In this document: positions 62,376 to 64,000 of the stretch, piece by piece
Layout of the letters: each line of letters starts with the position of its first letter
Position numbering within the stretch: the stretch's first letter is position 1
Assembly (NCBI GenBank): GCA_024399275.1
Contig: JAKSHS010000001.1
Span: forward strand, 62,001 to 126,000
Source: an archaeon
GTDB lineage: Archaea; Thermoplasmatota; Thermoplasmata; Methanomassiliicoccales; Methanomethylophilaceae
Length of the DNA stretch: 64,000 nucleotides
Reading direction: 5' to 3'
Translations under genes and position numbers: made by a program
The notes under the pieces: model-generated
Database searches by the model: none
Told to the model about the DNA's origin: nothing
Seen by the model: the letters and a program-made list of their open reading frames with translations, nothing else

Positions 62376-62741
62376 ATGGCCAATAGACCAAAGACCGCCG
62401 CCGGAGCTTCCGCCTTAGGAACCATTGGTGGCATTATAACAGTTACCGGAATGGCATATAATCTCCATGCGGATGGGGACACTCTAATGTACATCGGGCT
62501 TTACTTGCTAGTCGCGATTTTGTTTTTTTCATCGGCAGGTTTTTTGTATTGGAATGGGAAAAGTAATTACCCCTCACTTATCTTCATCGAATTACTGAAC
62601 ATTGCTGTGATCATGACAAGTATTGCTTTAGAAACAGATTTCAAAAATCTAGGAACTATCCTCGCTGTGATTGCTGTTCTTATTGCTTTGCTATCCATTC
62701 CGGAGTCAGTTAGAAAGTGGATCGCTTGGGATAGACTGTGA
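62376..62741 (+). CDS. Small four-helix membrane protein, unknown function
   Basis: A 121-residue membrane protein from ATG 62376. Four hydrophobic segments are visible (about 14-32, 38-60, 67-84 and 92-110), and the C-terminus is basic (ESVRKWIAWDRL). I do not recognise a family. The longer frame from 62244 is rejected because a TATA-like GGTTATTAAAC about 35 bases before ATG 62376 suggests a very short leader. It precedes the riboflavin kinase gene by 81 bases on the same strand. Confidence 0.62.
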   Translation: MANRPKTAAGASALGTIGGIITVTGMAYNLHADGDTLMYIGLYLLVAILFFSSAGFLYWNGKSNYPSLIFIELLNIAVIMTSIALETDFKNLGTILAVIAVLIALLSIPESVRKWIAWDRL

Positions 62742-62806
62742 TTCCTAACCCTTTCAACCTATTTTATACGCTATCATGCTCCGGGGCAAGCTTTATTACC
62801 GCACCA

Positions 62807-62821
62807 GGGCTAATCTAGCCC
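62807..62821 (+). promoter_or_regulatory. Palindromic operator candidate of the riboflavin kinase/regulator gene
   Basis: GGGCTA-ATC-TAGCCC, a perfect 15-base inverted repeat, ends one base before ATG 62823. A TATA-like AGCTTTATTACC (about 62789-62800) places transcription start at about 62821, so the palindrome sits between TATA and start. The gene encodes a DNA-binding winged helix fused to riboflavin kinase, so autoregulation is likely. Confidence 0.6.
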
Positions 62822-62822
62822 G

Positions 62823-63479
62823 ATGGACGAGAAGTACACCCTAGTCCTCAAAAAGATTGCTCTTCTTGGCGGCCTAGACGACTATGTTGTAGTGTCATCG
62901 GGAGAATTAGGAAACGAGCTGAGAATAAGTCAACAGTCTGCCTCTAAAAGAATCTTAAGGCTTCTGGACATGGGACTTATAACTCGTGATCTCGGCGCAA
63001 GGAGGCAGCGCATCAGGCTTACAGACAAAGGAATCGAAGCCATAAGGAAGGAATATATAGAATACCGGAGAATTTTTGAATCTGAGGGCTGCATAATTCT
63101 TCACGGAGTAGTCACGTCCGGAATGGGTGAAGGCAAATATTACGTTTGCCAGAAAGATTATATGAGCCAGTTCGAGAAAGTTCTTGGTTATATCCCATAT
63201 GAAGGCACTTTTAACGTTGCTATCAATAAAGGTGAGCTTGGAAAATTAGACATCATTAAAAATGCTGAGGGAGTAGTCATTAAAGGATTTTCCAGCACAA
63301 GTAGAAGTTTCGGAGACGTTACTCTATATAAAGCGAAAATACACAATGTAGATTGCGCAGTCATAGTACCGAAAAGATCTCATTATAAGGAAATACTGGA
63401 GATTGTTTGTCAATTTCACATTAGAAGAACATTCGGCCTTTCCGAAGGAGATCCAGTAGACCTCAGAGTAGAACTTTAA
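62823..63479 (+). CDS. ribK: CTP-dependent riboflavin kinase fused to a winged-helix regulator (RbkR type)
   Basis: A 218-residue two-domain protein. Residues 1-85 are a winged helix (SSGELGNELRISQQSASKRILRLLDMGLITRDL). Residues 90-218 are the DUF120 kinase, which uses CTP to make FMN (GVVTSGMGEGKYYV, GYIPYEGTFNVAI, LRVEL at the end). This is the architecture of RbkR, a regulator of riboflavin genes in archaea. A palindrome overlaps the expected transcription start, consistent with control of its own gene. No riboflavin synthesis gene is nearby. Confidence 0.93.
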   Translation: MDEKYTLVLKKIALLGGLDDYVVVSSGELGNELRISQQSASKRILRLLDMGLITRDLGARRQRIRLTDKGIEAIRKEYIEYRRIFESEGCIILHGVVTSGMGEGKYYVCQKDYMSQFEKVLGYIPYEGTFNVAINKGELGKLDIIKNAEGVVIKGFSSTSRSFGDVTLYKAKIHNVDCAVIVPKRSHYKEILEIVCQFHIRRTFGLSEGDPVDLRVEL

Positions 63480-63733: not shown

Positions 63734-63806
63734 GCTCATGTAGTGTAGCGGCCAATCATTCGGCCCTTTCGAGGCCGGTACTCGGGTTCGAATCCCGACA
63801 TGAGCA
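63734..63806 (+). tRNA. tRNA-Glu (anticodon TTC)
   Basis: A complete 73-base cloverleaf. The acceptor is GCTCATG/CATGAGC with discriminator A, and the D-stem is GTG/CAT with one G-T pair. The anticodon stem CGGCC/GGCCG encloses loop CTTTCGA, anticodon TTC. The variable loop is GTAC, and the T-arm is TCGGG-TTCGAAT-CCCGA. There is no intron and CCA is not fully encoded (CCG follows). Confidence 0.95.
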
Positions 63807-64000
63807 CCGTGACATTCACCCTCACACCGAGTGGTCGTACACATCTGGCATTCCAATTGGCAGATCGCGCGGCAGACATGAAACATGATGGTGACACACA
63901 TCTGTCGAATCCCAAGAGGCGTCTCAGAAAATGCACTCTCTGCACATCCTCACTGACAGTCCCAGCATTCTATTCTGCACACCATACATTAAGATATAAT

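Follow-up and report, generated by a model that had tools for sequence, protein, structure and literature searches.

The perfect inverted repeat GGGCTA-ATC-TAGCCC that lies between the TATA box and the start codon of the archaeal riboflavin kinase/regulator gene rbkR is very probably a chance repeat and not an operator of RbkR, which most likely acts through a different palindromic sequence, cTACcA-N6-TgGTAg. The initial annotation of this DNA had read the repeat as the site of a bound repressor, with RbkR controlling its own gene according to riboflavin or FMN status. That reading was not upheld: the repeat is unlike the motif of the lineage's riboflavin promoters, its frequency is that of chance, and it is unconserved in the closest relative (G003) and before the 59 other rbkR genes. 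The features concerned are listed below, with positions in the window (the whole stretch of DNA that was analysed, 64,000 nucleotides) unless a contig is named.

62792 to 62798, forward strand: probable TATA box TTTATTA of the rbkR promoter, within the block TTTATTACCGCACC, unchanged in G003, and at the A+T peak of the family.
62796 to 62813, forward strand: TTACCGCACCAGGGCTAA, a degenerate look-alike of the riboflavin-promoter motif, probably non-functional, with one intact half, TTACC, and a chance-level score of -1.2 bits.
62807 to 62821, no strand assigned: the perfect inverted repeat GGGCTA-ATC-TAGCCC, GGGCTAATCTAGCCC, taken here as chance.
62823 to 63479, forward strand: rbkR, encoding a winged helix-turn-helix and a CTP-dependent riboflavin kinase (218 aa), from profile and PDB matches.
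Contig C10 of the same genome, 85396 to 85413 (1397 to 1414 of locus L229): motif site TTACTAAGAAATAAGTAC before the ribB operon, probably a true RbkR site, 10.9 bits.

The identity first given to the gene, a winged helix fused to a CTP-dependent riboflavin kinase of the RbkR type, was borne out. The kinase domain covers the whole of PF01982 (profile positions 1-121, E=1.9e-38, 131.6 bits against a cut-off of 25), and a winged helix-turn-helix was found at the N-terminus, where MarR_2 matches with E=8.3e-5, under the MarR_2 cut-off. The combined model NF010762 (winged helix/riboflavin kinase) matches residues 5-217 with 220 bits, under its cut-off of 279, and PDB entries 3cta/5trd, which we take to be Thermoplasma acidophilum TA1064, match residues 2-216 with E=2e-46. 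The start codon at 62823 is supported by the homologous starts of relatives, which align at M/V-D/N-E-K. An A+T peak at -24 to -30 from the rbkR start codon in 37 family genomes coincides with TTTATTA. The usual archaeal TATA spacing would put the transcription start at or near the ATG; the repeat therefore lies between TATA box and start, as the initial annotation had placed it, and the transcript is probably leaderless. A small open frame at 62379-62741 ends 81 nt before rbkR, its end aligning with G003 DNA upstream of rbkR, and gave no match in Pfam or NCBIfam. A tRNA-Glu gene (anticodon TTC) lies downstream of rbkR at 63734-63808.

The genome that contains the window (G000) comprises 750,557 bases in 16 contigs and is 79% complete. 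Among the relatives that match its RbkR protein are records labelled Methanomassiliicoccales and Methanomassiliicoccaceae; the closest relative, sharing 85% of its residues, is an archaeon found in horse faeces. The order of the motif set, Methanomassiliicoccales, was assigned by these named relatives. Upstream regions were taken from the 60 genomes, among 61, in which rbkR is present (G020 has only 73 nt before the gene), and from 56 of the 57 genomes with a ribB match, G030 being omitted (match from profile position 73, contig edge). For arfC (PF01872), 31 of 57 matching genomes were scored. Two genomes, G002 (96% complete) and G053 (95% complete), have rbkR and arfC, and ribB and ribH were not found in them; either a contig is missing or these are riboflavin auxotrophs that retain the regulator/kinase.

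The letters of the repeat and its perfect symmetry, with arms of 6 bases (4 of them G or C in each) around a spacer of 3, were confirmed, and one base separates its end at 62821 from the ATG. Perfect 6-3-6 palindromes occur 21 times in the 64 kb window, against a mean of 20.4 in base-shuffled copies, and 0.07 perfect 6-arm palindromes with a spacer of 0-8 are expected in any 25 nt. Some 6-arm palindrome is present in the last 40 nt before rbkR in 5 of the 60 upstream regions; these five differ in sequence, apart from a common core, GGTAGCTACC, in G056 and G060.

The region of the repeat was aligned base by base with one close relative, G003, whose RbkR is 85% identical to that of the window. 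The palindrome is broken in the aligned sequence, CACCCAAGATAGTCTACCCG: three bases of the left arm are substituted, one base of the right arm is deleted, and nothing compensates for these changes, whereas two stretches beside it are preserved, TTTATTACCGCACC just before it and CCCGATGGA. A search for the same palindrome before riboflavin genes, proposed at the outset as a check, yielded no other copy in the 60 rbkR and 56 ribB upstream regions, the ribB operon of the window's own genome included. As far as we could look, the repeat thus precedes no riboflavin gene but the rbkR at which it was noticed, an outcome that the initial annotation had itself named as counting against its reading. A second exact copy is absent from the contigs of its own genome, where matches with up to two mismatches number 4, against 6 for a reversed control. 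The exact pattern occurs in 3 of 102 family genomes and the control pattern in 19 of them, and neither of the two other copies of the exact pattern is tied to a rib gene: in G011 it lies on contig C112 and rbkR on contig C13, and in G093 rbkR was not located.

De novo analysis of the ribB upstream regions gave a palindromic motif of width 18, cTACcA-N6-TgGTAg (cTACcAattaatTgGTAg), with a log-likelihood of 284 against 34 for shuffled sequences. Training used 55 ribB regions, with the window's genome kept out. Sites of at least 9 bits, ranging from 9 to 21 bits, precede ribB in 52 of 56 genomes, a count that is partly circular since the same regions, other than that of the window's genome, served for training and counting; the remaining four ribB regions have no site of at least 9 bits. 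Free of this circularity are the results for rbkR, with sites at the same threshold in 16 of 60 genomes, for arfC, with none in the 31 regions scored, and for the window's genome. Random 180-nt segments taken from the window reach this threshold in 2.5% of cases. A conserved palindromic operator candidate, which RbkR would presumably bind, accordingly precedes riboflavin genes in this lineage. With rbkR present in almost all genomes, the motif is tied to RbkR through genes and promoters only.

Two variants of this arrangement were seen. In G056 and G060 (loci L189 and L190), a tight palindrome at most 40 nt before rbkR, reading AAACTGGTAGCTACCAGTTT in G056, sets the half sites of the motif back to back as GGTAG-CTACC instead of TACC-N8-GGTA. 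At many ribB sites of families f2-f6, an extra TAC-like half directly follows the motif, as if a third half site.

The ribB site of the window's genome, TTACTAAGAAATAAGTAC, is among the weaker ones of the set, and background reaches its score 0.008 times per 180 nt. It stands before an operon with the order ribB, a cytidylyltransferase-like gene (possibly the FAD synthetase RibL), ribC and ribH. Upstream of rbkR in the same genome there is no motif site, the best score being -0.5 bits. The palindrome is likewise no member of the motif: all overlapping positions score below 0, the best being that of TTACCGCACCAGGGCTAA at 62796, whose counterpart in G003 scores 2.2 bits. The top three motif look-alikes in the window (37124, 41824 and 45185) are inside open reading frames and were set aside as background.

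Exact searches of the 61 genomes with a strict form of the motif gave matches in 25. At 11 of 16 loci examined off ribB the motif falls within an open frame 90 or more codons long, and no riboflavin gene was recognised among the neighbouring frames, as read, of the 16. The reversed control of the strict pattern was commoner than the pattern, which by itself is therefore no regulon finder. A loose search of the window's own genome, allowing one mismatch, hit 200 places while its control hit 514, and no regulon was drawn from it. Of 48 named rbkR loci, 45 were scored (L154, L156 and L172 were omitted as partial); motif sites were found at a few from other archaeal groups and no general match was seen, which is what lineage-dependent operators would give. 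Strong matches upstream of rbkR were observed at L150 (Euryarchaeota SZUA-158, 15.1 bits) and L171 (Methanomicrobia CSMAG_1224, 15.6 bits).

With its perfect symmetry, its place between TATA box and start, and, behind it, a gene whose type is known for autoregulation, the palindrome has the outward features of an operator by which RbkR would repress rbkR in response to riboflavin or FMN, and an operator specific to one species would look as unconserved as this repeat does. We nevertheless regard this as extremely improbable, given the unlikeness to the riboflavin-promoter motif and the absence of the palindrome from G003, from all other rbkR promoters and from upstream of the ribB operon of its own genome. 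The recognition stretch of the protein also argues against it: all 17 genomes read, the window's and 16 others, have the winged-helix sequence SQQSASKRI in identical form, and SQQSAS is present in 3cta too. A shared operator is therefore expected; that one and the same reading head should turn, at a single promoter, to an unrelated GC-rich site is not. Two other roles of the palindrome were also considered and are very improbable, as a lineage-specific site for a different DNA-binding protein or as a hairpin in the RNA directly before the start codon; perfect arms rich in G and C, and a comparison with one close relative, leave room for either, to be set against the chance frequency in the window and the single copy in the genome. 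The leaderless transcript expected from the TATA spacing would, moreover, not contain a hairpin formed by these bases.

The symmetry of the palindrome could also be incidental to a decayed true operator that overlaps it, ATTACC-N8-GCTAAT at 62795-62814, with weak autoregulation remaining. This site is one mismatch from ATTACC-N8-GGTAAT, both the window and G003 retain the half site TTACC, and G003 reads ATTACC-N8-GATAGT, so that each second half is one base off GGTA(A/G)T. The motif scores of the two sites, however, are reached by 180 nt of background about 0.9 and 0.3 times, respectively, and TTACC overlaps the TATA box, which could alone explain its conservation. We consider a decayed operator unlikely, and favour a chance repeat at rbkR with cTACcA-N6-TgGTAg as the sequence that RbkR would use.

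Spacing was measured from motif centre to TATA centre, with a simple A+T criterion to place the TATA box. The 52 ribB sites have a median of 24 bp. For the 12 rbkR sites within the family the median is 13 bp; 11 of these lie at 13-16 bp and the one of G001 at 29. At the four rbkR sites outside the family the 13 bp pattern is less clear. At archaeal promoters, a site ending some 10 bp before the TATA box does not cover the BRE, as fits an activator, and one touching the TATA box does cover it, as fits a repressor. The two spacings therefore suggest opposite effects, and promoter anatomy suggests an activator at ribB and a repressor at rbkR.

In the window's genome, then, RbkR would most likely act through cTACcA-N6-TgGTAg at the ribB-ribC-ribH operon. 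Bound roughly 25 bp upstream of the ribB TATA box, the protein could aid the transcription machinery instead of blocking it. Roughly one relative in four has the same motif before rbkR; in the family it mostly abuts the TATA box there, a position from which a bound protein would rather repress. RbkR may thus activate biosynthesis and restrain its own gene, and FMN or CTP would presumably have a part in this control. Of the autoregulation proposed initially, what stands is that it is plausible in the 16 of 60 relatives that, judged from their promoter sequences, carry the motif before rbkR, whereas no such site precedes the rbkR of the window's genome. A bolder scheme, which we put forward tentatively and hold to be possible rather than probable, would let RbkR of the Methanomassiliicoccales switch genes either way depending on spacing: bound about 24 bp before the TATA centre it would recruit the transcription machinery to ribBCH, and at about 13 bp, one helical turn closer and over the BRE, it would shut its own gene, autoregulation having been lost in the species of the window, which would keep the biosynthesis arm only.

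These results remove a false operator and put in its place a testable candidate, the motif of the ribB promoters. The motif and its two spacings yield a direct prediction as to whether one kind of site serves an archaeal vitamin regulator for both activation and repression. The order consists of methanogens, at least partly of the gut, as with the relative from horse faeces, and transcription control in them is little studied. The palindrome itself would be of consequence only if binding were shown.

RbkR is reportedly a bifunctional riboflavin kinase/transcription factor of archaea, and its DNA binding is said to be stimulated by CTP and suppressed by FMN, which would fit activation of biosynthesis at low FMN. 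The same problem of control is solved in bacteria by the FMN riboswitch, an RNA element. RbkR-type control of riboflavin synthesis is thus a known kind of system, to which the motif and its spacing add as side results. In PMC8305020, TA1064 is named as RbkR, the Haloferax protein is termed bifunctional, and the CTP-dependent riboflavin kinase MJ0056 of Methanocaldococcus jannaschii is described as lacking a winged helix, unlike the RbkR of the window, of which residues 91-215 match its similar kinase domain (2p3m, 2vbs-2vbv). A passage of PMC10746257 gives RbkR as the predicted regulator of the riboflavin operon of Pyrococcus furiosus, with no sign of the effect stated there. Compared with archaeal RbkR systems, the window differs in that its palindrome is, very probably, not the operator and that the motif in its genome stands before ribB only and not before rbkR. 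The protein has the same domain architecture as archaeal RbkR, with 3cta/5trd as its best solved relative, and in the order its probable targets are the riboflavin biosynthesis genes and rbkR.
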